Of a stretch of 64,000 nt of DNA, positions 22,677 through 53,863 are shown piece after piece. The DNA is from Simmondsia chinensis. Lineage: Eukaryota; Streptophyta; Magnoliopsida; Caryophyllales; Simmondsiaceae. Under the pieces are notes generated by a model. It made no database searches. It had not been told where the DNA came from and saw nothing but the letters and a program-made list of their open reading frames with translations. The position numbers were made by a program, and so were the translations under genes. The stretch lies in assembly GCA_018398585.1 (NCBI GenBank), contig JAGTTD010000006.1:2430501-2494500 (forward strand). Reading direction: 5' to 3'. Numbering within the stretch: position 1 is the first letter of the stretch; the number at the start of each line of letters is the position of its first letter.

Positions 22677-22926
22677 GGGTTCATTTACCATGTATTAATA
22701 CACCGAATTTTATTAAAACTTCGAAGTTAAACGTGCTTGGACGAGAGTAGTACCAGGATGGGTGACTTCCTGGAAAGTCCTCGTGTTACTAACCCTATAA
22801 GATTGGGGGTCCTCGGAAACAAGCTCTTGGCTGGGTTACACCCTGAAATGGTAAGGCTGCATACATCCACCCCCGGACCCCGCTTAAGCTGGAGCCTTTG
22901 AGGCACTGGGTCTGTTGTTGTTGTTG
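22677..22926 (+). mobile_element. 5S-headed SINE, copy A (subfamily 1)
   Basis: A perfect 15-bp TSD, GAGAGCCTGAAATGA, flanks it (22662-22676 and 22927-22941). The head starts GGGTTCATTTACC and carries 5S rRNA sequence with GAAGTTAAACGTGCTTGGAC (A-box region) and AGGATGGGTGACTTCCTGG (C-box region). The tail carries GGGGGTCCTCGGAAACA, GGTAAGGCTGCATACATC, GGCACTGGGTCTG and TTG repeats. Noncoding; pol III transcription would rely on the 5S internal promoter. Confidence 0.93.
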
Positions 22927-22949
22927 GAGAGCCTGAAATGATGGATATT

Positions 22950-23393
22950 AGGTAAGAAAATGAGAAAATTAAAGCTACACTGTTAAATCTTAAATAAGAT
23001 TGATTAATGGTTCTAATTATAATTCACTTTATTAGCCAAATTAATAAAAGGTTAAAATTTTCCTCCCATACTTCCTCTTTCTCACTCCCCCGCATGCCTC
23101 CTCCCCACCAAGTCACAGGTAGCCGAGTTTTCACCGTGCCACCGCTGCACCGCTGCTCCACTGCCCCTTCTCTTTCTTCCAATACCCCTCCCCAATTTAC
23201 CTCTTTCTTTCTCTCCTGCACGCCCCTTCCCCACCACGTCGCCAGCAAACCCCATTACCGGCAACCAACCATGCTGGTGGTATGGGAGGGAAATTCGTTT
23301 TTTTAAATGCCCAAAAATCTTGGCCCTCCATTACAATCTTACTTAAGATCTAGCGGTGTAGCTTTAATTTTCTTATTTTCTTACATAACTTTC
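22950..23393. mobile_element. Long-TIR DNA element with a GC-rich core
   Basis: 22950-23005 (GTAAGAAAATGAGAAAATTA, AGCTACACTGTTAAATCTTA) is closely matched by the reverse complement of 23335-23393, about 55 bp of inverted repeat. The core, 23075-23290, is C-rich and much richer in GC than its surroundings, which could be a captured host fragment as in Pack-MULEs. No TSD was confirmed. Confidence 0.6.
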
Positions 23394-24000
23394 ATTCTTA
23401 TTCCAGTCTCTCCTTATATATTATTAGGTTTATGTCTCAAATTACTTGTTTTAGTTTTATGGGGTTGCCGTAGGGTCACCGATCGATCGGGAGGGAAGTC
23501 CGATCGATTGGGTGATTTAAGGAAAGATTCGGGATTTTTTAGGCAGTTGAGGGCCGATCTATCGGCTTGTTCCGATCGATCGGGCCCTTCCAGACCTGCG
23601 CCTATAAATTAGGACATAGGGTTACTTCACAATTGCGACCCAAATTAATAGTGAGGCGCTGCCATTAAGAAAATAGGTGATTTTGTAATTTTTCCAAGAT
23701 ATTTTGAGTGCTACGAGAGTTTAGAGAAAGTGATTGTAATTCTTTCATAGATCTCGTTCAGAGGAAGTGTCGTTGTAATTCTTCCATTCAGTATCAATAA
23801 AGAATCTTCATTTCCGCCCGCGGTTTTCTCCCCTCTCGATTGTAGAGGGGTTTCCGCTTAAATATTGTGTGTTTGTGTTTGTTCTTTCTTTCTCCATATA
23901 TTTATTTACTACTCGTTTGTTTGAGACATATTATTTGAATCGAATCAAGTGATTAGGGTTTACGCTTCCGCATCAAGATTTTCCTAACAAATTAGTATCC
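23394..24000 (+). repeat. Probable LTR end with a degenerate primer-binding site
   Basis: A TATA-like CCTATAAATTAGG (23603) is followed by an AATAAAG-type polyadenylation signal (23797), then TTTCCTAACA and TTAGTATCCCAGCATATC, which resembles the CA terminus and TGGTATCAGAGC primer site. GATCGATCGG repeats (23480-23582) lie upstream. The 5' border was not defined. Confidence 0.4.
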
Positions 24001-24043
24001 CAGCATATCAGATTTGTTAAGTTTCCTTACATATATATATATA

Positions 24044-24178
24044 TATGATAATGTTATTGACAGAGCGAAGTTATTATTACAAAGGTAAAATCATAATTTT
24101 AAAGGTAATTTTATGAACCTTATTATTTATAAGTTATATTATTACCCTAAAAATAACAAGTTTTATTCGGAGAATAAT
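24044..24178. mobile_element. Small AT-rich MITE
   Basis: An imperfect palindrome with TAATGTTATTGACAGAGC on the left and TTATTCGGAGAATAATAAT on the right, matching a family also at about 21365, 41668, 58504, 59313 and 59733. Confidence 0.5.
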
Positions 24179-24467
24179 AATTTTATATATATATGTATAT
24201 ATATAAAATAGTATATTATAAAATATTCGTAAAAAGAAGTAAGAAGAAAAGCACCATGATGAGGAAAAGTAAGGGATTAAAGAAAACGGAAGAATTGCTT
24301 TTTGGCTCTTTAATTCCAAAAGTACGCTCACCCACAGCCCACAACACAGCATCCTTTACTTGCTGCTTCTTTATGCTCTCTCTCTCGCTCTCTCTATATA
24401 TATATTTAATATAACATGGACACGTTCAAATCCTAAAAGTAACGTTGAGAAAAGATATAAATTATAG

Positions 24468-24643
24468 CTCATCGTGAGTGTGTTTCAGTTGGTGGTATCT
24501 TTTATTTATGTGGTCATCGTCTAGCGGTTAGGTGCTTGACTTTCGCTGAGAATATACTCATAACTTACCTGCTCATGGAGGCTTGTGAGTTGTTCTCATG
24601 AGCCGGGGTTGGTTGGGGCAACCCAATCTCTCGTCACCAAAAA
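24468..24643 (+). mobile_element. tRNA-Glu-like SINE
   Basis: The flanks AAAGATATAAATTATAG (24451-24467) and AAAGATATAGATCATAG (24644-24660) match at 15 of 17 positions. The internal CATCGTCTAGCGGTTAGG and CTTGACTTTCGCTGAG resemble the 5' half of plant tRNA-Glu; the B box is degenerate. It ends in CACC plus an A run. No open frame. Confidence 0.65.
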
Positions 24644-24689
24644 AAAGATATAGATCATAGCGTTCTTAGAGTTACACTTCTGATGTTGT

Positions 24690-24905
24690 TGTTTTATTAT
24701 TGCTTGCATGATTTCATTCCTGATACTAGTTTATTTGACTTAAATTTTATAGATAATGTATTAGCACTGTTTTGCTTACTTTTTTAGGGTTGCGGATTTT
24801 TTGGAAACAACTTCTCTTTGGGGTTGTACCTTATAGTGTTAAGTCTGCGTATATCTTACCTTTTCCAGACTCTATCTCGACGGGATCCCTTGAATGCCCT
24901 ATTTT
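24690..24905 (+). mobile_element. RTE LINE 3' end fragment
   Basis: 3' UTR-like text (TTTTATTATTGCTTGCATGA) is followed by the shared tail (TTTTTTGGAAACAACTTCTC, AAGTCTGCGTATATCTTACC, GACGGGATCCCTTGAATGCC). The same UTR and tail combination occurs at 35810-36030. It lacks the final TTG repeats. Confidence 0.6.
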
Positions 24906-25116
24906 TCAGCCTCATTTTTCCGTACGATAAAAAAGGGGCTTTATTACAAATTAAAACACTTTCCATCTAGCTGAAATACCATTTTTTGAGCCTCATTTTC
25001 ATATCTTAATGTTATTTTAAAGGTTGATGTTCCTTTATTATTTTAATTATATCAAGATATATGCCGAGGTATCTATAAGTAATATTTAATAATCTTAAAA
25101 AGTAACTCTCGAACAT

Positions 25117-25157
25117 ACACACACACATACACACACACACATATATATATATATATA
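25117..25157. repeat. (CA)n(TA)n microsatellite
   Basis: ACACACACATAC and TATATATA units border the MITE that follows. Confidence 0.85.
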
Positions 25158-25450
25158 AGGTGATATTTTTATGAGAGGGTGAAAGTATGAGAGTGGCGAA
25201 TCCTTGCCTTCATTGTAATGAACGGCCAAAATTGATTGGACATTAAAAAAATAACAATTTATGACTAAAATTTGTTGAGTATTGAAAAAAAAAAAAACAA
25301 ATTTTCTCCCTTACCCCTTCTTTCTTTTTGCTCCATGAAGTGGTATAAGCCGTAAATTATTATTTTTTTAGCATCCAACAAATCTTGGCCGTTTATTGCA
25401 ATGAAGAGCTAGGATTCGCCTATCTTACTCTCTCATAAGAACGCCATCGT
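25158..25450. mobile_element. MITE inserted in a TA microsatellite
   Basis: About 100 bp of inverted repeat: the left TTTTTATGAGAGGGTGAAAG and GGCGAATCCTTGCC blocks match the reverse complement of the right GGATTCGCCTATCTTACTC and TCTCTCATAAGAACGCC blocks. It lies between TA repeats, so the exact TSD is ambiguous. A related element lies at 36762-36945. Confidence 0.65.
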
Positions 25451-25474
25451 ATATATATATATATATATATATAT

Positions 25475-26047
25475 GACTTTTCCTTTTTTTTAAAAAAAAA
25501 AAAGAATTGGAGATTCAAGTAGGGTCAGCACCTGTGAGCAACATTATCAAAATACTGTTACACATAAATTATTGACGATATGATTATCTGAGTGCCCTTT
25601 TTATGTTTCCATGCAAACTCCATTAACACCAATAATGGCACGTCTATCAAATCCGCCCTTTTTTTACATACAGTATATTAATGTAAGTCTAGTTAAATCT
25701 TACATTAAAGTTGTGAGAGAGAAGAAGTTGATATATAAATCTTGCAGGTTAGCCTACTTAATGTCAATTGGTTTTAAGATAAAATCTCACTTGAGTTTAT
25801 ATTTGGATCTCATAAGTGCTCCTTAGGTTGGGCCAAACAGGGTCCAGTGGAATTCTAACGCGGTAAAACAGTCACATGGACTACACAAAGGGCACTTCCC
25901 TAAATCCTTTAACCTTTGTCGCTGAATGATGAAAGTGAAATTTGATCCCAAGTTTTGGACGCCGCCTTTTAAAGAGTTTACTAGTTGAGTTAGCTGATAG
26001 CTTCAAGCAAATCAAACATGCATTAAAATGAGCTTATTCCATTCAAA
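25475..26047. other. AT-rich spacer
   Basis: 25451-25474 is (TA)n. No gene was recognised to 26047. Confidence 0.45.
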
Positions 26048-26484
26048 TAAGGATGGCAACAAGGAGGGGCGGATACAGGGGATGCCTCCTTCATACCCGT
26101 ACCCGCCACCCAAATTTCATGCTCATACCCGCCCCATTACCCGCAGGTATCCATTACCTGCCTCGTACCCGCCTTAATGTGAGTACAAAATAATTATCCG
26201 TATGTGCTCGTATTTATAACATAATTGATAAATAATTTTGGCAACTAAATTTAAGTGTGTATTTTTAATTTGAAAGTTATTTAGATGAAAAGGAGGCATG
26301 TATGGTGGATATAAAGCAAGACAGGGCGGGGCAGGTATGGAGCGCGACAGGATGGGCACAACACCATACCCATACCCACCTCATACCCGTGGCCGGTACG
26401 AGTGCCTCACTTATATCCATACCAGCCCCAAACGGGGCAGATAGCCTCGGATAACGAGTTTTATCAGCCTCATTGTCATCCCTA
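26048..26484. mobile_element. hAT-like element, GGGTACC family
   Basis: Ends TAAGGATGGCAAC and CCTCATTGTCATCCCTA, with the family's GGGTACCC/CATACCCG units inside. The flanking 8-mers CATTCAAA and TATTTTAA match at only 5 of 8 positions. Confidence 0.6.
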
Positions 26485-26649
26485 TATTTTAAGGCTTTAG
26501 GTTGAGGTAAAAAGTAGTACAATTGAGATTTTTGGGATAAGAATCACTTGCCTGTCTAAAAAAGAGTTCTCTACATTCAAATTCCACTTTTTTTTTTTCC
26601 GATTATTAGCGACGAAAGTTGTGATACAATATGCTACAAACTCAACGAG

Positions 26650-27165
26650 TAAGGATATAAAATTGTTGAGCCGATGACAACCTTACTCGAACTTGACCTT
26701 GATAAGGCATTTATCGAGTTTTTGAACCTTTATTCGAGCTCAGTTCAATAAGTTATATGTATGTCTAATGTTCAACTCGACTCAACTCGTTAGCTTGTTT
26801 GACCTAAAGAGAGCTCATTTATCAAGTCGTGTCGTGCTCATTGTTGAGCAAAGTTTACTACTGAGTAAATTAGACTCGCTACTGAGTCAAACTATTCAAG
26901 CTATTATCTAGTCATCATTGATCGACTGTTGAGTTAATATCGAGTCATTATGAAGTTCTTAATTAGTCATGAATGAGCCATTAATGGGCTTTTTAAAGAG
27001 CCTTTTTGAAACTGTTTGTGAACACCGATGAGTTGAGCACTTCGTTGTCGAACTTGGCTAGACATTCTATCAAACATTCAAACTAAAAATGAACGAGCCC
27101 TAATCGATTTCAATAACAAGTAGTTCATCGAACATTTAATTTGTGTACATTCATATCTAGGAGCA
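26650..27165. repeat. Decayed GAGCTC-rich hAT-like repeat
   Basis: TAAGGATATAAAATTG on the left and GTACATTCATATCTA on the right resemble eroded forms of the TAGGGGTGTAAA ends. The interior has GAGTC/GAGCTC words. No TSD. Confidence 0.4.
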
Positions 27166-27221
27166 TAACTTTCCACAAAATTCTTATGTAAAAAAAATAA
27201 AATAATTTGCTTACCTAATAT

Positions 27222-27222
<1 letters not shown>

Positions 27223-27256
<34 letters not shown>

Positions 27257-27501
27257 AACAATAGACTCAGTGCCTCAAAGGCTTCTGCCTAAGCGGAGTC
27301 TTGGGGATAGATGTACGCAGCTTTACCCCTTCAGGGTGTAACCCTGCAGAGAGGTTATTTTCAAGGACCTCTAATTTTATAGGGTTGGCAATATGAGGAC
27401 TTCCTAGGAGGTCACCCATCCTGGTACTACTCTCGTCCAAGCATGCTTAACTTCAGAGTTCTAATGGGATCCAGTGTATTAATTCCTGGTAAATGAACCC
27501 T
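27223..27501 (-). mobile_element. 5S-headed SINE, copy E (subfamily 1, minus strand)
   Basis: A perfect 19-bp TSD, AATTTGCTTACCTAATATA (27204-27222 and 27502-27520). On the plus strand it begins with a long CAA repeat (the TTG tail), then CTCAGTGCCTCAAAGGC, ATGTACGCAGCTTTACC and the 5S head (TAGGAGGTCACCCATCC, GCATGCTTAACTTCAGAG), and ends GGTAAATGAACCCT. It is the copy with the longest tail repeat. Confidence 0.93.
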
Positions 27502-27539
27502 AATTTGCTTACCTAATATATACTCACATTATAATTTTG

Positions 27540-28560
27540 GCCTATAAGTTCTTAGGTCACTATCCAATTATCCAACGCCAACCCCGTTCAGTTAAATAAA
27601 GTAAATGAATAAAATAAGGTCTAATATGTACATGTAATATTTAGTTTTATATATGAAAATATTAGTAAAAAGTTTAAAGACTGAAAGAAAATATAGGTAA
27701 TGATAAACAATAAGTTTATTGAATACCTCAATTATGGAACAAGATTAAGACTTGCCTTAGTGTCTTGCTAGATTGTTTTAGGAACTTGAAGTATCGACTA
27801 AGATGGCTACCAGAGTCCTCTAGGTTTTCCATATTACAAAATCAAGAGTTGAGAATGGTGACTCTAGAGAGAGAGGTGAGTATTGTAGAGTAACTGATTT
27901 CATAATAAGATGAATGAGTTAATTACTAAGGAGAGGAGATGACTCTATATATAGGTACTTAAACGGAGTTCTCCTCTAATCCATTACTTTTTTAAAAGGA
28001 GCGAGGAAATCCCCCCACTACTTAAATGGGGGACATCTACACTATATCTCAACAATTGAGATATATTTAGTGGCTGACCAAGTCAGTGTCCAACAGACAC
28101 ATTCTTTTTTTCCAGGAATCTATCAATCAGAGGAGAACAGTAGTGGTAACAGAAGCACAACATATAGTAAATGATACGGTCTAATCAATATTTTAAGAGT
28201 TAAAGTTACAAATTTAACAAAATATGGAACATCTGTATTGATTATTTCTAAATATCATTTATTTCTTAAATGAGAAAAATACGGGTAATTGTTATAGTAT
28301 GTGCATTATATGAAAAATATTAAGAAAATGCATATTTTACCGTACTACTAAAATTATACGTAAACTCTCTTTTTAAATAGAAAATTATAGATACATATTC
28401 AAAATGTGTAATATACGCGTATTTACTAACAGAGATTCGTATGTTATATTGGGGTTTGAAAACAAAATAAGCCCAAGTACTCAAAGTGGGCTTCATATGC
28501 AGACTTGAACTTTGGTTTCTTGTAAAGTTATTATAGCCCAATTTCTTTTATACTAGTTTA
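27540..28560. other. AT-rich spacer, unidentified repeat at 27715-28030
   Basis: 27715-28030 has a TATA-like CTATATATAGG and could be an old LTR, but no ends were found. No gene. Confidence 0.35.
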
Positions 28561-28566
28561 ATTCAC

Positions 28567-28690
28567 GGGTTATTTACATTTTACTATCCTGACATTTTTA
28601 GGAATAATAAAAAGGATCCCAATCCTTTTGAATTATTAAAAGATCATTTAATTTTTGTCGTATTGATAAAAAGGCTCATCTCAAGGATGA
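28567..28690. repeat. Half of a Mutator-like MITE
   Basis: GGGTTATTTACATTTTACTA and the following AATAATAAAAAGGATCCC, GAATTATTAAAAG and GTCGTATTGATAAAAAGGC match the left inverted repeat of 60952-61458. The matching right half is absent; a GGGTACC-type element follows instead. Confidence 0.55.
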
Positions 28691-30750: not shown

Positions 30751-30759
30751 CGACTCCGA

Positions 30760-31165
30760 TTTTTTATGACCACCCGTACCCTCCTTCCCCTTCTCGAAGA
30801 AATATTTGATTACGATTGCTTGCATCTAATCACTGGACGATTGGCATTAGGAGTGTAATTTGTTAAGGTACGTGTTGTTCTCCTTGCTAATGTATATACC
30901 AATTCCTTAATCTTCGTCTATTGTTTTAAGTTTTTGGAGCAATTAATTATTAGTTTTGTCGACGAGAAGTTGCAAATTTGAATCCTAATAGCGTTTACTT
31001 TTGATTTTAATACAATTGAACATGTGATAGTAGTACAACACCTTGTACGCCAGCTGTTTGTGAAAATGCTTGACTAAGAAATTGTGCTTCCATTTTCACT
31101 TAGGTCATGACAAATGAAATTGAAGTCTGAAATTGGAGCTGAGATTGAAATTAGAGTTTGGAATT
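30760..31165. other. Spacer, nothing recognised
   Basis: No gene or repeat could be supported here. Confidence 0.4.
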
Positions 31166-32022: not shown

Positions 32023-32425
32023 GGATCCTACTTAGGTAATGTTGTCATGGCTCAGTCAATATCCGATTGATCAGATCAGTCTACACAGAGTTTTCTGTCA
32101 GCTGTTACGTCGTTTTGGCCTCTGCTAGGCGAGAAAATTCATTTTTACCAAATTTTTTATGTATTCTTTATCTACGTACATCTAACTCATCGAATATAGA
32201 CAAAATCAGGACTAATGTGTCCTTCATATTGTTACAACGTGGTGCCTCTGCGTCTTCATGATTGTAAAAGAAATGGTCTTTCATCCTTTCTGGTCCAATC
32301 GGCATTTAGGGTGGTCACCTAAGGCTATATTAGTATTTATAAGGGTAATGTTACTGCAATTATTTTTTGGCTTATCTTTTTTCAGCTTATTTATTTATTT
32401 TTGATATATTTACATGTAATTTTTA

Positions 32426-32798: not shown

Positions 32799-33081
32799 TA
32801 ATTTTTATGAATAAGCAGTGAAGATACGAAACATTTGCATCTTTTTCCGTTTCGTTATAAAATAACTTTTTTATCTTTCTTTTTAAGCCGGAAAAAAGAT
32901 GAAAAAGATCTTTTTGTGTCCACCAAACATAAACTATACGGATACCCTTTCTCAAATAGAAAGAGAAATCATAGGATCAAAACGGGTATCGCATTCACTA
33001 TCATTATCAAAGCTATTTTTGAGATAATAATATCATAACAAGAACTGTCTTTGTGAAGTAAAACCACAATAGGGTTGGAAT

Positions 33082-33242: not shown

Positions 33243-33508
33243 GTTGGAATTGGAAAATGAAAATATCTGTTTTTTCTTACTCAATTTTTGCCTGAAATCC
33301 CAAGCTTCAACAATAATGATTCATAAGGATGAGGTTGCAGAAGGCATGCCTGACAAGAATTGGCAAAACAGCAAAAAGTATCATCATGTCCTTTTTCTTT
33401 TTATAATTAGGACACAGGTCGAGAAGGCACCATCAGTACTGGTTAGGATTCAACGACAAATAAAAACATATATATGTACACATTAGAAAAGGGGTAAGGG
33501 ATCAAAGA

Positions 33509-33743
33509 GGACACCAACACGCCGTCACAGGATTCCATTAGAACTCTGAAGTAAAGCGTGCTTGGGTGAGAGTAATACCAGGATGGATGACCTCCCGGGG
33601 AGTCCTCATCTTCAAGTTGGGAGCACTGGAAAACAACTTCTCTTCAGGTTAACACCCTGAAGGAGGAAGGCTGGGTACATCCGCCCTCCCCAGACCCTGC
33701 GTAGGCGGGAGCCCTTAAGGCACTGGGTATGTTCCTATATTTG
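33509..33743 (+). mobile_element. 5S-headed SINE, copy D (subfamily 2)
   Basis: Flanked by a 25/26-bp duplication differing by one indel (33483-33508 and 33744-33768, beginning TTAGAAAAGGGGTAAGGGA). Head: ACACCAACACGCC, GATTCCATTAGAACTCTGAA, CGTGCTTGGGTGAGAG and ACCAGGATGGATGACCTCC. Tail: GGGTACATCCGCCCTCCCC, GGCGGGAGCCC and GGCACTGGGTATG. The TTG repeats are almost lost. Confidence 0.92.
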
Positions 33744-34165
33744 TTAGAAAAGGGGTAAGGGACAAAGAACTAGATTTTTGTAGGCCAGTAAATGGAGCAC
33801 ATTGAATAACTCCCAAGTAGGCTGGTCGATGTTGAATCATACATCAAACATACTGACAATTGGGTCATGGAACTCGTAAGCACTTGAGGAAACAACCTCG
33901 ACATCAGTTTGTTAAACCACAAATGTCTCACTACGTATCTTCATGGATCCTTAGACTACTGTATTCTTAGAATAGTGAATATATTAGATTTTTTTTTTTT
34001 TTTTTTTTTTTTTTGTGTACAATCAATACTTCTAATATTTTTTTCTTACTTTCCAATGCTTTTTATAGGATTTAATCTTGATAACTTTGCTACATTAGAT
34101 ATGGTAGGGCCCCATTTTATTTTGGGGGGGGGGGGGGGGGGGATCTACGAATGATTTGCTGTAAG
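33744..34165. other. Spacer with homopolymer T and G tracts
   Basis: Contains a T tract (about 33990-34013) and a G tract (about 34124-34142). No gene seen. Confidence 0.6.
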
Positions 34166-34178
34166 GTCAGTCAAGACC

Positions 34179-34438
34179 AGGGTTCATTTACCAGGTATTA
34201 AGGCACCATATTTCATTAGAACTCCGAAGTTAAACGTGCTTGGACGAGAGTAGTATTAGGATGGGCAACCTCCTGGGAAATCCTCGTGTTGCGAACCCCA
34301 TAAGGTTGGGGGTCCTCGAAAACAGCCTCTTGGCAGGATTACACCCTGAAGGGGTAAGGCTGCGTACATCTAACCCCTCCTAGATCTCGCTTATGCGGGA
34401 GCCCTTAAGGCACTGAGTCTGTTATTGTTGTTGTTGTT
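34179..34438 (+). mobile_element. 5S-headed SINE, copy B (subfamily 1)
   Basis: The TSD GTCAGTCAAGACC (34166-34178) against GTCAATCAAGACC (34439-34451) matches at 12 of 13 positions. Head: AGGGTTCATTTACCAGG, GAACTCCGAAGTTAAACGTG and TTAGGATGGGCAACCTCCTG. Tail: GGGGGTCCTCGAAAACAGCC, GGTAAGGCTGCGTACATC and five TTG units. It sits less than 0.5 kb from copy D in the same orientation. Confidence 0.93.
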
Positions 34439-34451
34439 GTCAATCAAGACC

Positions 34452-35799: not shown

Positions 35800-36033
35800 T
35801 TTGTTATTATTGTTTTATTATTGCTTGTAAGCTTGGTCTTACTTTATTTGATTTTTTCGAAATTGTTCCTTCTTAATCTTTTTCTTTTTAAAGAGTTGGA
35901 GGTCCTTTAAAAACAACCTCTCTATCGGTTATCGCCCTGTAGTCATAAGACTGCGTATATCTTATCCTTTTTAGACCCTCCCTTGATGGGAGCCTATTTG
36001 AGGCACTGAGTTGTTATTATTGTATAAAGTTAT
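35800..36033 (+). mobile_element. RTE LINE 3' end fragment
   Basis: UTR text shared with 24690-24790 (TTTTATTATTGCTTG) is followed by the tail GTTGGAGGTCCTTTAAAAAC, AAGACTGCGTATATCTTATC, GATGGGAGCC and GGCACTGAGTTG, then TTATTATTG. Confidence 0.65.
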
Positions 36034-41829: not shown

Positions 41830-42086
41830 GGGTTCATTTACCAGGCACTAATACAACCAGATCCCATTAAAACTTCGACGTTAAGCATGCTTGGGCGAGA
41901 GTAGTCCTAGAATGGGTGACCTCCTGGGAAGTCCTCGTGGTGCCAACCCTATAAGGTTGGGGGTCCTCGGAAACAGCCTCTCGGCAGGGTTACTGACGGG
42001 GTAAGGCTGCGTACATCCGCCCCTCCTAGATCCCGCTTTTGCGGGAGCCCTTGAGGCACTGGGTCTATTGTTGTTGTTGTTGTTAT
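41830..42086 (+). mobile_element. 5S-headed SINE, copy C (subfamily 1)
   Basis: The copy whose head looks closest to true 5S rRNA: ACCAGGCACTAAT, GATCCCATTAAAACTTCG, GCATGCTTGGGCGAGAGTAG, GAATGGGTGACCTCCTGGG and AAGTCCTCGTGGTGCC. Tail: GGGGGTCCTCGGAAACAGCC, GGTAAGGCTGCGTACATCCG, GGCACTGGGTCTA and TTG repeats. No TSD was found; a PIF-like MITE abuts its 3' end and may have replaced it. Confidence 0.88.
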
Positions 42087-43820: not shown

Positions 43821-43827
43821 GGTCGTG

Positions 43828-44148: not shown

Positions 44149-44161
44149 GCCAACCATTCAT

Positions 44162-44405
44162 AAAGCAACATTTTCAGTGCCCCAAGGACTCCCGCCTAAG
44201 CAAGGTCTGGGGTGGGTGAATGTACGCAGCCTTCTCCCTTCAGGTTGCTACCTTAAAAGGAGGCTGTTTTCGAGAACCCCAACTTGGGGGATGCAACACA
44301 AGGACTTCCCAGGAGGTCACCTATCTAGATACTGCTCTCATCTAAGCACGCTTAACTTCAGAGTTTTAATTGGATTTAATACTTGCGTGTTGGTATCCTC
44401 CTAAT
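44162..44405 (-). mobile_element. 5S-headed SINE, copy I (subfamily 2, minus strand)
   Basis: The TSD GCCAACCATTCAT (44149-44161) and GCCAACCGCTCAT (44406-44418) match at 11 of 13 positions. Complement of the tail: AGTGCCCCAAGGACTCCCGC and GAATGTACGCAGCCTTCTCC. Complement of the 5S head: AGGAGGTCACCTATCTAGAT, AAGCACGCTTAACTTCAGAG and CTTGCGTGTTGGTATCCTC. It lies about 200 bp upstream of the BURP gene start. Confidence 0.91.
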
Positions 44406-44554
44406 GCCAACCGCTCATGTCACGAGAAAATCATATTATCCTGTCGTATCAAATTTTACCGACTTTTCTCATCACACACAAAAAAAAAAAAAAAAAAAAC
44501 TAAAATGGGAAAATAAAAAAGGAGTCTATAATGGGGGGGTTGGGTTGGGGGGCT

Positions 44555-44562
44555 CTATATTT
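44555..44562 (+). promoter_or_regulatory. Possible TATA box of the BURP gene
   Basis: CTATATTT ends 54 bp before the ATG at 44617, which would put the transcript start about 25-30 bp upstream of the ATG. Judged by position only. Confidence 0.35.
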
Positions 44563-44616
44563 GTCCGCAGTTATGCTGCCAAATTGGATACACACCCAGC
44601 CAAAGCAAACACTACA

Positions 44617-47600
44617 ATGTCCAAACCTTTCACTCTTTTCTTCACTTTGTTCTTTTCCTTCTCCTCTCTTTGTGTAAGTATCTTCTACTTCTCTCCATCC
44701 CCAACACTCTCTAAATTCTACTTCAAATTTATTCTTCTTTGTACTGTTCGGTTGTTTGTTTATCAAGAAGTAATACTCGAATTTAGACTTCATGGAAAGT
44801 GGGTATCTGTTCTCTTGTTTGGTTAGGAAGTTTCAATTCGTTTGTCACGCGGGAATTAACTGCCTACTTACTGGGAAGTTGATACTGGAAATGAATTTTA
44901 ATTCCTGTGTTAACTAAACAAGGCCTATCTTCTTCTTCTATTTTCTTTCTTATTGTTAAGAAATCAACTATTTCAAAAACTTATGCCGGTAGGTGTAGCA
45001 CTGGAAATGGTTTTATTCTATGACATTCCCCTCTATTGAGAATGCGTGGACAATGTACTACCCCTTTCCATTCCCTGTGTTGAAATTATTTCAATATTCT
45101 GAGTAGGTGTCGTTAGATAAAGGTTTATGAATAGTTTTATACTCGAACGGTTCTATTTTTCTGATGAATGCAGGTTTGTCTAGGAGGAGAAAGTGCACCA
45201 AATTTTCAACCCAAAGAAAAGAACCCATTTTCAGCAAAAGCATCTGTGATCCGTTACTGGAACGCCCATGTCTCAAACCACCTTCCGAAGCCAAGTTTCC
45301 TTCTCTCAAAAGCCTCGCCGCTCAATGCAGTTGACTTGGCAGTTTTCTCGAGGTTAGCCTCGCAACGAGCCCTCTCGAGCCAGATCGTTATCTTCTGCAG
45401 ATCAGCTAACTTGATCTGCAACTTGGGTTCTGCTCAGACAAGCCACCGACCTAGCCCGCACCCAAGAGAAGCTAACTTTGTAGGGTACACCAACAAGCAA
45501 TTCTCAAACTATGGACCCTCTAGTGTCCATGGTGTGGACTCATTCAAGAATTATTCATCTGGGGTTAACATGCCCACCAATTCCTTCACCCGGTACTGTT
45601 CATGTCTTGTAAAAGTGGTCCACTAATCGAGTTTCTAATTTTAATAATTGATTTGAGCTTAGCATTATATATAAGTCGATAATTAAGCTAACCAATTAAT
45701 TTGAATTAATTGTTAACCGTTTAAAGAGAATCAAGGAACCACGATGGATGGTTGTATAGATTGATTGTCAGTGTCATAAAAAAGAAAGAAAATTGGTGGA
45801 AATTAGAGACAGAAAAAACAAAGGATCTGTCAAAGAATTAACTTTCTCAAAAACTTAGGCTGATGAATGAAGGCTTAGGGATAATTTTATACTCTAACAT
45901 GCCCCACTCACGCGAATGCCAATTAGGCTTGAAACATGTATAGTGCAAAGACCCACCTTATACCTTGTGTTTAAAATTGTAGTATATTAAAGTGGGAGTT
46001 GTTGAGATTCAAACCCATGACATGTTGGTCAACAAGGCTCTAATATTGTCTCAAGGAATCAACTTTTTTCAAAAGATTAAACTGATGAGTAAATGCTCAT
46101 GAAAAGTTTTATACTCTAATAGGGTCGAAGTCATGCATCTATCTTTTGTATATGTTCTTAAGCTCTGATTGTTCCACATTATCTGAATATTATAGCGATT
46201 ATTCTAACAGATACAGCCCTGGCTCAACCGGGCACGGCGAAGACTTCACCAACTACGCCAACAATGCCAATGTGGGCAATGACAGTTTCTCGAACTACGG
46301 TCAAGGCGCAACCGGTGGCTCAGGTGGGTTCGCTAACTACGAGCCCAACGCGAACGTCCCGAACCTCCGGTTCACAAGCTATAGCCTAAATGGGAACCAC
46401 CATGAGCTCTCATTTGGGTCCTATTCAGATGATACAAACTCAGGGTCAGAATCCTTCACAAGTTATGCTAAAAATGGTAATGGGGTTCCCTCTCAATTCA
46501 CCAATTACGCTGATTCCTCAAACATTTTAGGTTCAAGTTTTTCGAGTTACAGCGAGCTCGGCAATGGCGCAAACGACTCGTTCAAGGGCTATTCTTCAAA
46601 TGCCAACAACCCCCACAATAACTTTAAGAATTACGCGAGTGGGGTGAATTCTGGGGTTGAGAGTTTTGTGAATTATAGGGATAGTGCTAATGTGGGTGAT
46701 GATACATTCTTATCGTATTCGAGAACTTCGAACTCAGCCAAGGCGAGCTTTCTGAATTACGGTAAGTCCTTTAACGATGGGTCGGATACGTTCAAAGAGT
46801 ATAGTACAGGGGCTGTGAATCGCGATATCGAGTTCAAGAGTTATGGTGTTAATAATAGTTTTAAAGGGTATGAAGATCATAAAGGTGTAACCTTTTCTGA
46901 ATATAGGAAGAGAAGCTTAGATATGAAAGGAAAAATGTCTCAAGAACTTGGTGGCAAGATTGTAAATAAGTGGGTTGAGGAGGGCAAATTCTTTAGAGAA
47001 TCTATGTTGAAGCCTGGGAATCAAATGAAAATGCCTGATATTAGGGATAAAATGCCCAAAAGGTCGTTTTTGCCCCGGGTTATTTCGTCAAAATTACCAT
47101 TTTCGACGTTAGAGGTCCAAGAGATGAAGCAGATCTTTCGTGCTGGTGAGAATTCCACGTTGGAGTCTGTTATGAAGAATGCACTTAGTGAGTGTGAGAG
47201 GCCGCCTAGCCCAGGTGAGACGAAATGGTGTGTTGCCTCTATAGAAGACATGTTGGACTTTGCATTATCGGTTTTGGGTGATAATGTGACGGTTAGGACG
47301 ATTGAAAATGTTAATGGGTCTGGTCAGACGGTGGTGATCGGTTCGGTCAGGGGGATCAATGGTGGAAAAGTGACCAAATCAGTGTCTTGTCATCAAAGCT
47401 TGTTTCCTTACTTGTTGTATTACTGTCATTCTGTCCCTAAGGTAAGAGTTTATGAGGCTGATATCCTAGACTTAGGGACTCGAGCCAAGGTGAACCATGG
47501 AGTGGCAATATGCCATCTCGACACAACAGCTTGGAGTGCAGGGCATGGAGCCTTTGTGGCCTTGGGTTCGGGTCCCGGGCTCATTGAGGTTTGTCATTGG

Positions 47601-47639
47601 ATCTTTGAGAATGACATGACTTGGACAACTGCTGACTAA
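44617..47639 (+). CDS. PGL: Polygalacturonase 1 beta-like protein, BURP domain
   Basis: Exons 44617-44673, 45174-45592 and 46211-47639 join to 634 residues. The splices are TGT|GTAAGT...GCAG|GTTTGT (phase 0) and ACCCG|GTACTG...AACAG|ATACAG (Arg codon split). A signal peptide opens it (MSKPFTLFFTLFFSFSSLC). The N-terminal region has YWNAHVSNHLPKPSFLLSKA. About 20 FxxY repeats (FTNYANNANVG, FSNYGQG) follow, and then the C-terminal BURP domain. Its CH-X10-CH-X27-CH-X25-CH pattern (SCHQSLFPYLLYYCH, AICHLD, EVCHWIF) is complete. This family binds cell walls. The tomato member is the beta subunit of polygalacturonase isozyme 1 and affects pectin breakdown; Arabidopsis relatives affect cell size. 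The length is usual for the family. No lesion was seen, so it is probably functional. Confidence 0.94.
44674..45173 (+). other. Intron 1 of the BURP gene, with a TRIM remnant
   Basis: GT-AG, 500 bp. About 44954-45147 matches the TRIM family (TGTTAAGAAATCAACTATTT, GTGGACAATG, AGTTTTATACTCGAACG), with the second LTR heavily shortened. Confidence 0.65.
45838..46121 (-). mobile_element. TRIM in intron 2 of the BURP gene
   Basis: The LTR copies lie at 45838-45899 and 46047-46121, flanked by GGATC (45833-45837) and GGGTC (46122-46126), 4 of 5 matching. Between them are the family's polypurine side (ACATGCCCCACTCAC on plus) and a degenerate primer-site side (AAGGCTCTAATATTG). The intron is 45593-46210, so the TRIM occupies nearly half of it without disturbing the splice sites. 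Confidence 0.78.
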
Positions 47640-47839
47640 GAGTGTTTTTTCTTTACATTTTGATGAGACAGTTGACTGCCTTAACATTTCGTATGATCTA
47701 TTTATTTTCGAGAATTTGATGTTTAGTGTATGGAGAAGGGAATTTGATGTATGATTTGGTTTATCTTTGTGTGTATTATCTTTGTTCAGTGGCAGAGTTG
47801 GGATTTATAGTCGGTAAAGTAATAGAACAAAAGCATTAT
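47640..47839 (+). other. 3' flank of the BURP gene
   Basis: Contains the likely 3' UTR. No strong AATAAA was seen; T-rich and TTTGATGT elements are present. Confidence 0.35.
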
Positions 47840-47856
47840 TTTTAAGCATAATAATA

Positions 47857-48092
47857 GCAATAACATATTTAGTGCCCCAAGGGCTCCTGCCTAAGCAGGG
47901 TCTTGGGGACAGATGTATGCAGGCTTCTCCCTTTAAGGTATTATCCCTGAAGAAGGCTGTTTCCGAGTGCCTCCCAACCTGAGGGTGAGGACTTTCCAAG
48001 AGGTCACCCATCCTAGTACTGCTCTCGCCCAAGCACGCTTAACTTCGAAGTTCTAATGGGATCCCGTGACGGCGTGTTGGTACCCTCTTTGA
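47857..48092 (-). mobile_element. 5S-headed SINE, copy F (subfamily 2, minus strand)
   Basis: A perfect 17-bp TSD, TTTTAAGCATAATAATA (47840-47856 and 48093-48109). Complement of the head: GGTCACCCATCCTAGTACTG, CTCGCCCAAGCACGCTTAAC, TTCTAATGGGATCCCGTG and GGCGTGTTGGTACCCTC. Complement of the tail: AGTGCCCCAAGGGCTCCTGC. The 5S A box and C box regions are well kept. Confidence 0.94.
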
Positions 48093-48311
48093 TTTTAAGC
48101 ATAATAATACATTTATTTAATACACTCTTAATAAATATACAACGCAATTAGAGAGTTTTGATATTTCAGTATAGACAATTACCATTCACATTAATGTCAT
48201 TCTAAAAGCTTTGTTTGTTTTTAAATAATTAGGAGGAAAAAAAATCCTCAAAAGTATACAGGAGGTAGACCTCCAAAATAGACCAATCCAAACAATAACA
48301 ACAAAAAAAAT

Positions 48312-48760
48312 ACAACAATAACAAACCCAGTGTCTCAATGGCTCCCCCTAATACAGGGTCTTGGGGGAGAGTGAGATATACGCAGCCTTAACCCTCCAGG
48401 GTACCACCTCAAAGGGAGGCCGTATTCGGAGACCCCCAACCTATACCTGAAAAGCATAACAATAGCAATAGCAATAGCAATAGCAATAGCACAGAGAGAA
48501 AGTAAAACAGCAATAATCAATAATCAATTAAGTCATAGAACAACAAGCAGTAAGGCAACAAAGCAACAAGCAGCGCGACACAAAAATCCTGGGGGCGCTA
48601 AGACTAACCGCTATATCGGCTACACCTATACTAGCTCTCCTCTCAGCTCTGTCTAAAGCTGTCTCCTCATTCAGGTTTAGGTGAGTGAGGTCATGTCGAA
48701 TTGTCTTTATCCATCTCTTCTTTGGCCAGCCTCTCCTTCTCCTCCCGTGTGTAACAACGA
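48312..48760 (-). mobile_element. RTE LINE 3' end
   Basis: Minus strand: 48750-48600 encodes the RTE C-terminus (EAGQRRDG-side frame RRPKKRW-like, ending before CGCCCCCAGG). A UTR with AGCAAT repeats (48465-48492) follows, then the tail module (48445-48312) with GGGGGTCTCCGAATACGG, GCGTATATCTCACTC and a TTG-type end. No 5S head, so this is the LINE and not the SINE. Confidence 0.7.
48465..48492. repeat. (AGCAAT)n microsatellite
   Basis: About five tandem AGCAAT units within the RTE LINE 3' UTR. Confidence 0.85.
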
Positions 48761-48781
48761 AAGAAATAACAAATGAAAAAC

Positions 48782-50590
48782 TTTACGCATCATGGACAAA
48801 GCCTGGCCAAAGGCATCCAACTTTGACCGTACTAAAAAACAATGGATGATGATGCCGCCTAGGGGGAACTGATGAACATACGAAACGGATTTTCTGATGA
48901 TAGTCAAGCTTTTTGGAAAAGAATTGTGTCAAGCATTCATAGAACACCAACTAACTTTGTTGCGATTGGGAACTACAAAGCTACTAGTCCTTCACTATGG
49001 TTTGATATTCTCAACTTTCATCATGGGTCCCAGCAAATTGAAGATTGCATCAGGGAAGGTTGGACATTCATAATAGGAAATGGCCTAAAAACATCCTTTT
49101 GGGAGGATGTTTGGATTGATGAATTGCCGCTAAAGGATAGATTTCCTAGACTCTTTAGTGTATCAGATCAGAAAAGGAAATGCATTAGTGAAATGGGGTG
49201 CTGGGATGGGCTTTGTTGGCACTGGAATTTCATGTGGAGGAGGCGTTTGTTTTTGTTTGAAATCACAATGAGAGATGAACTCCTCCAACTGCTAGGCCCT
49301 GTTTTCCTTTGCCCTGATAAATCAGACTCATGCTGCTGGAGATTTGATGCAAGAGGGAGGTTCACGGTTAGATCTTTCTGCATGTATATGTGGCAAAGGC
49401 AGGGCATGGATCAAACTCATATAATTAAAGGCTTTTGGAAAGGGGCTGTCCCTCCAAAAGTCAAGCTCTTCACATGGCTGGCTCTACTCAACAAGATAAA
49501 TACAAGATCTAGGCTTGTTAAGCTTGGTATCATTGATGAGCAGCTGAACATCTGCATAATGTGCAACCAGGAAGCTGAAACACCCAACCACCTCTTCATA
49601 CATTACCAAACTGCCTGGAAAGTGTGGAGCGCACTAGCTGACTGGTGGAAGCAAGAAATGGTGACTTCACCTACAATTAAATTGTGGTATGAGCAATGGC
49701 AAGGAGTGTATACAAGCTGTTTCAGAGAGAAATGCTGGTATATTACTTTCTTTGCAGCAATTTGGTCCATTTGGCTTGCTAGAAATGACAATATATTCAA
49801 CGATAAGCGAACATCCACAGAGAGCATCATTGATATTGCAAAGTGCAGAGTAGCTACATGGATCAAGGCAGTGAACGAAGATCTTCCCTACTCTATCCAA
49901 CAAATCATATCAGATATTGATACGACATCCAAGTGGAACAAACCGAAAAGCTCAAGAGCTGAAATTCATTGGTCTCCTCCTGGATTCGGAGCTCTGAAAT
50001 GGAATGTAGATGGATCGTCAACAAGGAAGCCAGGAGATGCAGGAGTCGGTGGTGTCCTTAGAGATTGGCAAAGTAACATTTGTTGTGTGTTCTCGGTTCC
50101 AATTGGGACCAAAGATTCAAACTTTGCTGAGATTGAAGCCATAAGATTAGCACTTGAATACTCATGGCAAGATGATAACATCAAGAGCAACAGACTACTA
50201 ATCGAGTCTGGTTCAAGAAACGCAGTCTCATGGGCGAACAACTTAGATTCGTATCCTTGGAAGATGAACTTCACTATCAATAGAATCTAATTGCTTCGGA
50301 AAGAATTTTCTTGGGTTTCAGTCATACACCAGAAGAGGGAAGCAAACCAATTAGCGGACTCCCTTGCTAAAAATGCGGTTCTAAGAAGCTCCCCATTGAT
50401 TGCTTGGATACAATAGATTAACTACAATTACTTGAGGATTGTTATATATATAGTTGGTGGTCCTCTTTTTGATGTACATGATTATCCACATTTTGTATAG
50501 GTTGGATAGCTTTGTTGTGTTGTATCTGTCCATCAATTTGATTGGGCGCTTGTACAATCTATTTTGATTAATGAAAGTCCAATTATAAAA
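48782..50590 (+). mobile_element. 5'-truncated L1 LINE, ORF2 C-terminus and 3' UTR
   Basis: The flanks AAGAAATAACAAATGAAAAA (from 48761) and AAGAAACAATGAAAAAAC (50591-50608) form an imperfect TSD. The element holds the last third of ORF2 and a 3' UTR to an A-rich end. It inserted at the edge of the RTE fragment. Confidence 0.7.
48872..50415 (+). pseudogene. L1 ORF2: zinc-binding and RNase H domains
   Basis: Open from 48872 to a TAA at 50288-50290, then continuing in the same frame to a TAG near 50415. The zf-RVT region includes WTFIIGNGLKTSFWEDVWI, WKGAVPPKVKLFTWLALLNK, CIMCNQEAETPNHLFIHYQ and IWSIWLARND. The RNase H (RVT_3) region includes LKWNVDGSSTRKPGDAGVGG, FAEIEAIRLALEYS, and, past the stop, KREANQLADSLAKNA. 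The endonuclease and polymerase parts are missing because the insertion is 5'-truncated. Confidence 0.9.
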
Positions 50591-50608
50591 AAGAAACAAT
50601 GAAAAAAC

Positions 50609-51426
50609 ATACATTACTGTCATTTTCATACACCACGCCACAAACATGCTTGTTGAAAAATGAACAGCTTTTTTACACATAAAAGTGGTGGTGGCCAACA
50701 GATTGGTTCGACCTGTTATTCGGTTTGATGAGTCGCATATACGAGCCAACTTAGTTTGGCTCGTGATACTGCAGATCGACTCAATTTGATCCATTTATTA
50801 TAGCATGTCAGCTTACATGTTGAAAAAGTTCAACAAGATAACATGAATCGATGCATTTTTATGTTAATATCCTAACAAACAACATCTTTTGAGTCAAATG
50901 GAAACATTTATTATACGGTGTGAACCGGGTATGACCCATGTAACTTGTCCAATTTGGACCCAACCTCGTGTGGGTCTGATCGGACTCAAACCAACCAACG
51001 TAAAAGACATGTCAATAAGCCAAATCACCTCTGAAAATTTTTCTCTGGACCCCACTCGATTGGACTGTTCCCTAGTTGAATCTAACCTTCATCAACCCGT
51101 ACATATGGACGGGTCGACGAGGCAGTTACTCGTGGGCCACCTCTTAAAAAAGACGAATGGGGGTACAATTATTGTTGAAGACTCCACATGTAAGTTGTGA
51201 GTAGAATCCTACATTAAAATTGTGATAGTGAAGAGATCAATTTATAAGTTTAGTAGACTACTTCACCTATTGAAAAATGGTTTTAAAATGGAACCCTACT
51301 TAAACTTATATGTAGATCTTATATATCCCAACTTTGTAGGTCAGGCCCAAAAATGACCAATTGCAGACAAAAACAATAGAGAAATGTCTTTTTTCTTTTT
51401 TCTTTTTTTTGCATTTGTTAGTGGGA
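50609..51426. other. Spacer, nothing recognised
   Basis: No gene or defined repeat could be supported. The 103-codon frame at 50889-51200 has no recognisable features. Confidence 0.45.
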
Positions 51427-51429
51427 TGG

Positions 51430-52322
51430 CCATATATAGAGCTTAGTGGAGGATTAGTATAGGTGTAGCCAATATAGCAGTTTAGGATTAGTAAAGGTGT
51501 AACCGATATAGCGGTTTAGGATCGACAAGTAGTTCTAAGCTAGTTTTAGTGCCCCGAGGCATTTTACATGCCTGTTTGATTATACGCAATTCTTTCATAT
51601 GTTGGCTGCTTAGTGTTCTTACTGTCTGTCACCTTATTGTTGTATTGCCTCCTCGCTGCTTTATACTCTCTATATGCTTGGTATTTGTTGTGTATGCTCT
51701 TACACCTAGATGCTTGTATGCTTTCATGCTTTTCACACTTTTCAGGTAGGGAGTCCTTGAAAACAGCCTCTCTTTAGGTTATCACCCTAAAGGGGTAAAG
51801 CTCCGTACGTCCCACCCCTCCTAGAGGTGTAAACGAGCCGAGCCGAGCATCCCCTTGTTCGAACTAGAGTTCGATAAGGCTTATCGAGCTCGAGTTCAAG
51901 CCGAGCTCTTATTGAGCTCATTATCGAGCCCAATCGAGTTTGAAACCCAGCCAAGTTTGCAATTGAGTTGAGTTCATTAACGAGCCGAGCTTTTTAAGTT
52001 ATTATCGAACCATTTTTGAACTAATACCAACTATTATCGAGCCGACAACAAGCCCTTAACAAGTTAATATCGAGCCCCTTAACGAGCTCTTATTGAGCCT
52101 TTATCAAACTGTTCGTGAACATTAACGAGCCAAGCACCCCCTGTTTGAACTCGGCTCTTTAAACTTATCGAGCCTGCTTGAACTTGGGTCGATAAGCTAT
52201 CAAGCTCTCCTAATGAAAACGAACAAGCCCTAATCGATTTCGAATAGTTCATCAAATGCTCTATTTGTTTACACCCCTCTACTTATACGGAAGCTCTTGA
52301 GACACTAAGTCTATTGTTGTTG
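51430..52322 (+). mobile_element. RTE LINE 3' end with a nested hAT-like element
   Basis: TAGTATAGGTGTAGCCAATA matches the nucleotide sequence of the RTE ORF end at 48600-48650 (complement). The UTR runs to 51740, then the tail: GTAGGGAGTCCTTGAAAACA, GGTAAAGCTCCGTACGTC, then (after the insertion at 51825-52279) GGAAGCTCTTGAGACACTAA and TTG repeats. Confidence 0.68.
51825..52279. mobile_element. hAT-like element, GAGCTC-rich family, inside an RTE tail
   Basis: Ends TAGAGGTGTAAACGAGCC and TTTGTTTACACCCCTCTA are inverted. The interior is GAGCTC/TCGAGC words. It splits the LINE tail between CCCACCCCTCC and CTTATACGG. An 8-bp TSD is not evident. Confidence 0.65.
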
Positions 52323-52384
52323 TTGTCAGAAAAAAGGGGGATTTTAAGGTTCAAAAAATGGGGAAATGAATTATGGGTCCTGCG

Positions 52385-52840
52385 TCATCGTTTTGCGGGT
52401 ATGTGGGGATGTGGATATGAGAAGTCATTTTTATGTCTCAAAAGAATTTTTCACAACAAAGATTCCCATTTTCTACTTTAAAAAGTTGTTCATGTTATAT
52501 TATTGGTAATGCCCGGTTTTAGAGATGTCTTATATTATGCTGCTTGTCTTAAATCCCACAAGATTATTCTAAATAGTGATAATGGATGAGATTCACATTA
52601 TCAGTTATCAGTGTGTCCAGATCAATTTTAAACATTGTTTTTGGGAAGCAAATAGGTCAACAAATTGGTTGGCAAACTTGGGCTCTACGCCTTTCTGCAT
52701 GTGTGACAGTGCATGTCGGATAGAGGCCTCTCTTCTCTTCTCAGAGCAGATGCTTTAGGTCTCTCAGTCCTTCGTGGACGGTACTAAGATTGTTTGTGCT
52801 TACTTCTTTTTAAAAAATGGGGTATTTTCTTGTTTGGACG
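52385..52840 (+). pseudogene. L1 LINE RNase H remnant
   Basis: 52576-52758 reads NFKHCFWEANRSTNWLANLG, the conserved end of plant L1 RNase H (FREAN..ADWLANLG type), with the catalytic region upstream destroyed. Short 3' UTR after it. No TSD. Confidence 0.55.
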
Positions 52841-53624
52841 GCACCCATAAATGCCAAAACCCTAAGTAGCATGTATAACACCAAAAAAGGAACTTTATAC
52901 GGAAAAATACCTTCATATAAAGACAATTCAATGATATATTGCTCTATTCAATAAGCTAACACTAACATATGTTTTTATCTCTTCATTCTTCGTATTCGAA
53001 AATGTGAAATTACACGTATAACTTCCACAAAAAACTAAACTCGTTAACATAGCTAGTCAATTAAAACATATAAACTTTTGAAAGTGTGTTTCTCAAAATT
53101 TGAAAAGTTATGATATTTAAGTAAAAAGTACTATTTTTTAACTTGGTCTTTGATGTCAAATCTACGCAATCTGGCTGAAACCCAAATCAATGGAGTGGAT
53201 ATAACCATATCCAAGGATGATTAATTACATTAAACGTGTCAAGACCCAAGGCTCCACACTAAACTCTAGTGCATTATGAGCCCAAATCAGACTAAATTTT
53301 CTGCTTCGTAAATTGTTTTAAAATATAATTAGACTCTACACATAAACCGAGTATTTTTTATAAAAAGAGATTCCCCATTTTGTAAAGTGAAAAGTGAACG
53401 AGGGTGGGCATATAAAGACAGAAAGACAGTAGGTAATGGGACTACTTCTGACTGAATTCTTCGCTCTTTTGAGTACTTCTAAAGAAAATGTTCCCTCAAC
53501 ATTGTTCCGTTCACATGTCAGTATAGTTAAAATATTTTATATTAAAAATATAAAATAGATTTGCTTTATAAATCTAGCAGGTTATTTCAATCTAATACTA
53601 ATAAGTTTTAAAATAGAATCTCAT
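52841..53624. other. AT-rich spacer
   Basis: No gene or repeat recognised. Confidence 0.45.
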
Positions 53625-53638
53625 TTAAACTTATATGT

Positions 53639-53863
53639 AAAGCAACATTACCCAGTGTCCCAAGAGCTCCCGCCTAAGCAGGGTCCGAGGGGGTGTGGAT
53701 GTATACAGCCTTCCCCCTTCAGGGTGATACCCTGAAGAGAGTCTGTTTTCGAGAACCCCCAACTCGAGGGGTGCACAAGGACTTCCTAGGAGGTCACCAA
53801 GCACACTTAACTTCGGAGTTCTAATGGGATCCGGTGCTTGCGTGTTGGTACCCTCTTAGGTAC
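53639..53863 (-). mobile_element. 5S-headed SINE, copy J (subfamily 2, internal deletion)
   Basis: A perfect 14-bp TSD, TTAAACTTATATGT (53625-53638 and 53864-53877). Complement of the tail: CAGTGTCCCAAGAGCTCCCG and GGATGTATACAGCCTTCCCC. Complement of the head: AAGCACACTTAACTTCGGAG, TTCTAATGGGATCCGG and CTTGCGTGTTGGTACCCTC. About 25 bp are missing from the 5S head between the C box and A box regions (AGGAGGTCACC joined to AAGCACAC). Confidence 0.92.

Follow-up and report, generated by a model that had tools for sequence, protein, structure and literature searches.

Eight copies of a 5S-headed element in the window

The stretch of the Simmondsia chinensis genome analysed here (64,000 nucleotides, hereafter the window; assembly GCA_018398585.1, contig JAGTTD010000006.1, positions 2,430,501 to 2,494,500 of the forward strand) contains eight copies of a short interspersed element (SINE) that begins with a 5S rRNA head and ends with a tail like that of a long interspersed element (LINE) of the RTE type. 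A scan of the window with Rfam at the gathering score returned only matches to the 5S rRNA model RF00001, at exactly eight sites that are the eight SINE copies, with scores of 38.3-62.1 bits (E 1.2e-10 to 2.4e-4) and model positions 1-120 covered in each of them. The original prediction had located eight copies at these sites, and all of them were borne out; for one, given as 33509-33743, the end was correct and the start was displaced, the true start being 33502, directly behind its target site duplication (TSD). The 5S homology had also been recognized, with its length underestimated at about 110 bp, since RF00001 is matched over the whole gene.

The copies are discrete units of 225-279 bp belonging to two subfamilies. 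Members of subfamily A are 250-279 bp long with a TTG array at the end, and are located at 22677..22926 (plus strand, RF00001 54.2 bits), 27223..27501 (minus strand, 62.1 bits, with a long TTG array), 34179..34438 (plus strand, 53.5 bits) and 41830..42086 (plus strand, 52.4 bits). Those of subfamily B are 225-244 bp long with a T-rich TGTTGCTTT-like end and no array, and are located at 33502..33743 (plus strand, 51.3 bits), 44162..44405 (minus strand, 38.3 bits), 47857..48092 (minus strand, 61.6 bits) and 53639..53863 (minus strand, 45.3 bits). The last one has an internal deletion within the 5S part, and in copies 33502 and 47857 a few bases are missing close to the 3' end of the 5S part. The TTG repeats formerly attributed to all copies are present in 4/8 (subfamily A) and missing from 4/8 (subfamily B). 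The unit can be read as 5S rRNA (complete in A, eroded at its ends in B), a junction a few nucleotides long and about 130 nucleotides of LINE 3' end, terminated by (TTG)n in A and by a short T-rich sequence in B. The common tail of about 130 bp had been predicted and was recovered by mutual alignment of the copies; its identity with an RTE-type LINE 3' end had gone unnoticed. Upstream of copy 34179 there is a long pure G run (about 34124-34142), a possible homopolymer or assembly artefact.

TSDs were evaluated by script, chance being given as the number of placements scoring as high out of 300 random ones. Perfect repeats flank copies 22677 (15 bp, 22662-22676 / 22927-22941; 1 random placement), 33502 (19 bp, 33483-33501 / 33744-33762; 0), 27223 (20 bp, 27501-27520 / 27203-27222, with a one-base overlap with the element; 0) and 47857 (17 bp, 48093-48109 / 47840-47856; 2). 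Repeats with one mismatch were found at copies 53639 (17 bp with a perfect 14-bp core, 53864-53880 / 53625-53641; 0) and 34179 (13 bp, 34166-34178 / 34439-34451; 7). The expectation of visible TSDs at seven copies agrees with the script (7/8), six being convincing and that of copy 44162 weak; among the four repeats described as perfect (15, 19, 17 and 14 bp), the 14-bp one is the core found at copy 53639, and the 20-bp repeat of copy 27223 completes the set of perfect ones.

No tRNA was detected in the window by ARAGORN or by Rfam at the gathering score, either of which could overlook a decayed tRNA head, and a tRNA-headed plant SINE (TS, Au, SolS; with A and B boxes) was rejected on these results.

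The 5S rRNA head and the LINE-type tail

The genome searched comprises 831 Mb in 35 contigs. Among 51,838 loose first-look candidates for 5S genes, 47 were scored, 46 of them in two opposite-strand arrays on contig C8 and one on contig C29. These genes score 97.6-112.8 bits, versus 38-65 bits for the SINE copies, and their spacing on C8 is mostly 420-445 bp. The two 5S rDNA arrays lie near 4.69 Mb and 6.41 Mb, and the genes read from them differ at three positions (L051 versus L063/L064).

The homology of the heads to 5S rRNA, on which the original prediction depended, was confirmed both with RF00001 and by alignment to the genomic 5S genes. The head of subfamily A matched the genes of array 1, array 2 and C29 at 109/121, 107/121 and 109/122 positions, respectively, and its promoter segment (46-98) at 50/53, 50/53 and 49/53, while its 5' part matched the array genes at 37/45 to 40/46. 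For subfamily B, the values were 46-47/53 in segment 46-98 and 30-31 of 45-48 in 5S positions 1-45. In both subfamilies, conservation is therefore higher in the promoter half than in the 5' part, as would be expected if active copies depend on the promoter. The predicted A-box and C-box regions are indeed inside the head, and their strings, as delimited here, are intact in both subfamily consensus sequences. Both subfamilies possess the structure that defines a 5S-derived SINE, a 5S-homologous 5' part with A-box, intermediate element and C-box, the intermediate element of B being one base different. Runs of at least four T are found in neither consensus; among the 36 distinct copies described below, they occur inside the element in four and in the tail in four.

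Judging from the alignments, the body of the SINE corresponds to the 3' terminus of a LINE family of RTE type in the same genome. A 3' part in common with a partner LINE is one of the marks of SINE3 elements, and positions 125-259 of the SINE A consensus matched the consensus of 13 headless tails at 125/136 columns (92%), with 109/124 (88%) for SINE B; two of these tails (L034 and L049), because of their short length, could be truncated copies of either the LINE or the SINE. Single LINE tails and single SINEs were 70-82% identical. A longer LINE copy (L068), 77% identical to SINE A in this part, encodes endonuclease (PF03372, PF14529) and reverse transcriptase (RT; PF00078) domains and has a 3' end of the same type with TTG. 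Its reading frame is a single one, in two pieces around one stop, with no separate ORF1 seen, and the element is short; the architecture of the RTE clade, with endonuclease and RT in one frame, is displayed by this one copy examined. For an older LINE copy (L038), Pfam detected nothing beyond a sub-threshold RVT_1 match in the RT pieces. Genome-wide, 17,230 first-look candidates were obtained for the C-terminal protein of the LINE, 150 of which were scored and found to be 85-100% identical. In a protein search with the LINE RT, the named matches among the best 120 of 3,484 were mostly plant RT proteins, with some from catfish. The predicted fold of 11 headless tails showed changes on both sides in 6/22 pairs, a value obtained without a shuffled control. 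The 3' part of the SINE presumably resembles the 3' domain of the Angio-SINE superfamily, which was reportedly described by Seibt in 2020 with a 37-bp 3' Angio-domain.

Members of the partner family are present in the window. The 5'-truncated RTE-type LINE at 16173..17055 (plus strand) consists of the C-terminal part of the reading frame (16173-16763) and a 3' untranslated region, of which the last 115 bp or so show homology to the SINE body, at 73-77% to individual copies, and have a TTG terminus. Headless LINE-type tails were located at 13883..14025 (minus strand, with a LINE coding remnant at 14217-14333 by tblastn), 48291..48442 (minus strand, coding remnant at 48594-48743 by tblastn), 35896..36023 (plus strand, no coding remnant found by tblastn) and 51741..52326 (plus strand). 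The last one is split by an unrelated insert of about 455 bp between 51825 and 52282, which has ends read by eye as GGTGTAAA...TTTACACC and internal GAGCCGAGC-type repeats, and is perhaps a small DNA transposon. One protein filed under Methylobacterium brachythecii (P0207, on a 2.2-kb contig) is 56% identical to the LINE RT and probably reflects plant contamination of the bacterial assembly.

Insertion sites, abundance and alternative readings

Whether the copies are fragments of a longer element, an outcome that would have refuted the original prediction, was examined with the flanks of 37 copies (L002-L030 plus the window's eight). These 74 flanks were taken over 400 bp on each side, the 3' flank from 30 bp past the match, and compared all against all with low-complexity filtering. 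Similarity was found in 18 pairs, and it was in register and abutting the element only in L019/L020. These two loci are 48 kb apart on contig C34, with flanks 98-99% identical and the same TSD, which indicates a segmental duplication and not two insertions. One match of 100% is the DNA between two neighbouring window copies, the flanks of L013/L014 have 46 bp in common at 80% about 100 bp upstream, and the remaining pairs are out of register. No copy was found to be part of a longer element, in agreement with the original prediction.

A set of 36 distinct copies was composed of 28 genomic copies and the eight of the window, once L001 (a window copy) and L020 (the duplicate of L019) had been dropped. 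A TSD score of at least 10 was reached by 27/36 copies versus 6.5% of 1,000 random placements, and a score of at least 13 by 20/36 versus 3.2%. The TSDs of those 27 copies are 10-20 bp long, that is, of the variable length typical of LINE-mediated insertion. The first base of the TSD was T in 16/25 copies with the repeat within five bases of the element (p 0.002), and upstream the T fraction peaked at -10 and was 0.53 over -12..-8, compared with 0.355 over -60..-21 (Wilcoxon p 0.005). According to the part of a published study that deals with plant RTE LINEs and their SINEs, a T stretch lies about 10 nucleotides upstream and the TSD starts with T followed by adenine (PMC13295347). The insertion sites show part of this signature, namely a T-rich position around -10 and a TSD starting with T.

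In the genome search with copy 34179 (subfamily A), 40 of 6,656 first-look candidates were scored and showed 86-100% identity. Abundance was estimated from a random sample of twenty 10-kb stretches (200 kb), drawn from 16 contigs with SINE matches and falling on 9/35 contigs, which yielded three SINEs, none of them among the 36 copies, and nine headless tails. Extrapolation gives a density near 15 SINEs per Mb, or roughly 12,000 in the whole genome (95% Poisson interval of about 2,600-36,000), and the abundance of subfamily B is known only from the window and this sample. At about 15 SINEs per Mb in the sample, the window, with eight copies in 64 kb, is unusually rich. Both RF00001 matches in the sample fall within SINE copies. 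LINE coding sequence was detected by tblastn upstream of 5/9 headless tails and a tRNA by ARAGORN in 0/9; two of the random stretches (L033, L044) contain a tRNA gene, neither of them having a headless tail. The element is accordingly a short, discrete and non-autonomous unit present at many loci.

Both homologies, the discreteness of the unit, its TSDs, the bias of its insertion sites and its dispersal can be read directly from the DNA. The explanation that we hold with high confidence is a multicopy plant SINE composed of a 5S rRNA head with an internal RNA polymerase III (Pol III) promoter and an RTE-type LINE 3' tail, and probably mobilised by the LINE. The interpretation of the copies as a 5S-headed SINE family is supported, and its mechanism is made more specific by the LINE tail. 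TFIIIA/TFIIIC and Pol III would transcribe the SINE from the 5S promoter, the LINE RT would recognise the common 3' tail (hairpins and repeat end), and the SINE RNA would be integrated into T-rich sites through target-primed reverse transcription. Acquisition of the head probably resulted from a template switch of the LINE RT from LINE or SINE RNA to 5S rRNA.

Several observations weigh against this explanation. Within the window, the TSD of copy 44162 (13 bp with 2 mismatches, 44406-44418 / 44149-44161), although flush with the element, is equalled by 89/300 random placements, and copy 41830 has none, the only match being of 6 bp (186/300). In the larger set, which is biased to subfamily A because 28 of the 36 copies were retrieved with a single A copy as query, the TSD score is below 10 in 9/36, and in two of the other 27 the repeat lies 9 and 24 bases off the element. 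A lesser rise in T (0.46) occurs near -36, and the adenine beside the first T cannot be made out clearly, A and T accounting for 37% and 30% of the second bases. With regard to the head, the array genes read differ at two bases from the C-box string that the SINEs keep, so that the arrays as they now stand are not the source of the heads; the divergence of the 5' part of subfamily A also indicates that the head is no fresh copy of the arrays. Concerning the tail, two short members enter the consensus, and none of the individual LINE copies found is close to the SINE body, the 92% identity being to a consensus, which makes the explanation slightly less certain. The assignment of the LINE to the RTE clade draws on its architecture, its tail and the literature rather than on a tree, and Pol III transcription is a prediction from the sequence.

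The alternative that survives best is that the 5S head is now a relic, the family being dead and its copies devoid of Pol III activity. This is compatible with the proposed origin, from which it differs only in present activity, and we regard it as a serious possibility, just short of an even chance. Consistent with a relic, the 36 copies diverge by 4-17% from their subfamily consensus, mostly by transitions. Against it stand the intact A-box and C-box strings of both consensus sequences and the 24/36 copies within 7% of the consensus, but 28/36 had been picked by similarity to one copy.

It is very improbable that the 5S pieces are long terminal repeats (LTRs), including solo LTRs, of a terminal-repeat retrotransposon in miniature (TRIM) of the Cassandra type, whose TSDs are about 5 bp long. 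Cassandra is described, in the portions of two sources dealing with it, as widespread in plants and as having a 5S promoter in its LTRs (PMC10853983, PMC10886601). However, no common flanks abut the unit studied here except in one segmental duplication, the 3' sequence that terminates each unit is of LINE type, the RF00001 matches of the window (8) and of the 200-kb sample (2) all fall within copies of this SINE, and the TSDs of 10-20 bp differ from the 5 bp that one of these sources gives, where it treats them, for the comparable TRIMs Helenus (plants, fungi) and Ajax (PMC10886601). A Cassandra or other LTR origin was rejected on the unrelated flanks and the long TSDs. The explanation with the least probability, by which ordinary 5S pseudogenes in dispersed positions or pieces of the arrays account for the copies, would fit the 5S homology and was rejected on the common LINE tail, homologous and located behind the 5S part in 8/8 window copies, together with a visible TSD in 7/8 and the gap in score between the SINE copies and the best 5S genes, which are in the C8 arrays.

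Relation to known elements, origin of the head and genomic surroundings

The element with a 5S head and an RTE-type LINE tail is a SINE3-type element in a plant. It is like other SINE3 or 5S-derived SINEs (DeuSINEs of fish and mammals, HaSE3 and PxSE of Lepidoptera, and the 5S-related SINEs of Aspergillus fumigatus) in having a 5S head as internal Pol III promoter and a spread ascribed to LINEs; unlike those of animals and the fungus, its host is a flowering plant, its tail is of plant RTE type and there is no separate central domain. In the table rows covered of one compilation, 5S families are paired with CR1-type LINEs, RSg-1 or BovB, and Ped-1 of the springhare is the only one with a 5S head and an RTE-clade (BovB) tail (PMC3747384). 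Ped-1 differs in belonging to a mammal; an independent origin is assumed, the two being set side by side by description and not by sequence. The same source, in the part concerned with plants, reports that (TTG)n or (TTGATG)n forms the terminus of plant RTE LINEs and that the 3' 100 nucleotides or so of the tobacco TS SINE are nearly identical to the 3' end of the RTE LINE RTE-1_STu, both ending in TTG (PMC3747384); TS differs from the present element in its tRNA head. Cassandra is likewise a plant element driven by a captured 5S promoter, but it is an LTR element moved by LTR-retrotransposon machinery.

The original prediction that known plant SINEs are mostly tRNA-headed agrees with a review which, in the part consulted, calls plant SINEs tRNA-derived (PMC9033089). 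In maize, a targeted search for 5S-derived SINEs with anchors in the A-box, intermediate element and C-box is reported, in the section concerned, to have been carried out 'without success' (PMC2774510). According to the relevant section of its description, AnnoSINE sorts SINEs by head, including 5S, and excludes near-identical Rfam matches (PMC8825457). Whether a plant 5S-headed family had already been described, a point left uncertain by the prediction, has been answered for the literature matches listed, among which there was none; most subscription papers were outside their scope, and priority is not established. The 62-amino-acid antisense translation of the junction gave 37 protein matches at E<=10, and in the five checked (ranks 1, 2, 3, 5 and 21) the 5S antisense peptide was matched in 5/5 and the LINE part in 0/5. 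Neither the plant 5S pattern nor the LINE-tail pattern was found in viral contigs (0 each), nor the junction pattern in bacterial and archaeal genome contigs (0), results that have no bearing on other plants.

One composite locus bears on the origin of the head. At L067 (C29:34924734 on), a near-intact 5S sequence (111 bits) is followed by TTTACAAAA and by a B-type SINE at the 3' end. The 9-bp repeat TATATTAAA lies on either side of the composite, in an AT-rich setting in which repeats are likely to arise by chance; inspection by eye revealed none around the SINE portion by itself. This locus may be a template-switch product that shows how a head is acquired; alternatively, a B element may have landed beside a stray 5S copy. 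A tentative proposal, which we consider less likely than not, is that plants have a 5S-headed SINE lineage whose head is renewed from 5S rRNA of the host when the LINE RT switches template. If it were true, this lineage would represent the SINE3 type that has been postulated in plants as donor of the Cassandra 5S promoter; the source reporting this hypothesis speculates, in the portions consulted, that Cassandra derives from a SINE3 insertion and names no plant SINE3 there (PMC10886601). The proposed step from SINE3 to Cassandra becomes testable in plants. The combination of a plant 5S head and an identified partner LINE family also suggests that plant SINEs can vary in their head and yet keep a LINE-type tail. 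For genome annotation, 5S genes in a genome of this kind would be overcounted if Rfam matches were simply tallied, because all eight window copies pass the 5S gathering score.

In the surroundings of the copies, a BURP-domain (polygalacturonase 1 beta-like) gene is located at 46089-47639 (PF03181, E 2e-63), with SINE 47857 starting 217 bp past the end of its reading frame and SINE 44162 upstream of the gene. The best named matches of its product, among the best 120 of 1,016, were from Caryophyllales (Nepenthes, Saponaria, Carnegiea, Silene and Ancistrocladus) at 72-73%. Broken reading frames that by eye resemble Copia-type polyproteins are present at 3475-7629 and 62189-63703, and a retroelement fragment with zf-RVT and RNase H-like domains, probably of L1 type, at 48863-50290.

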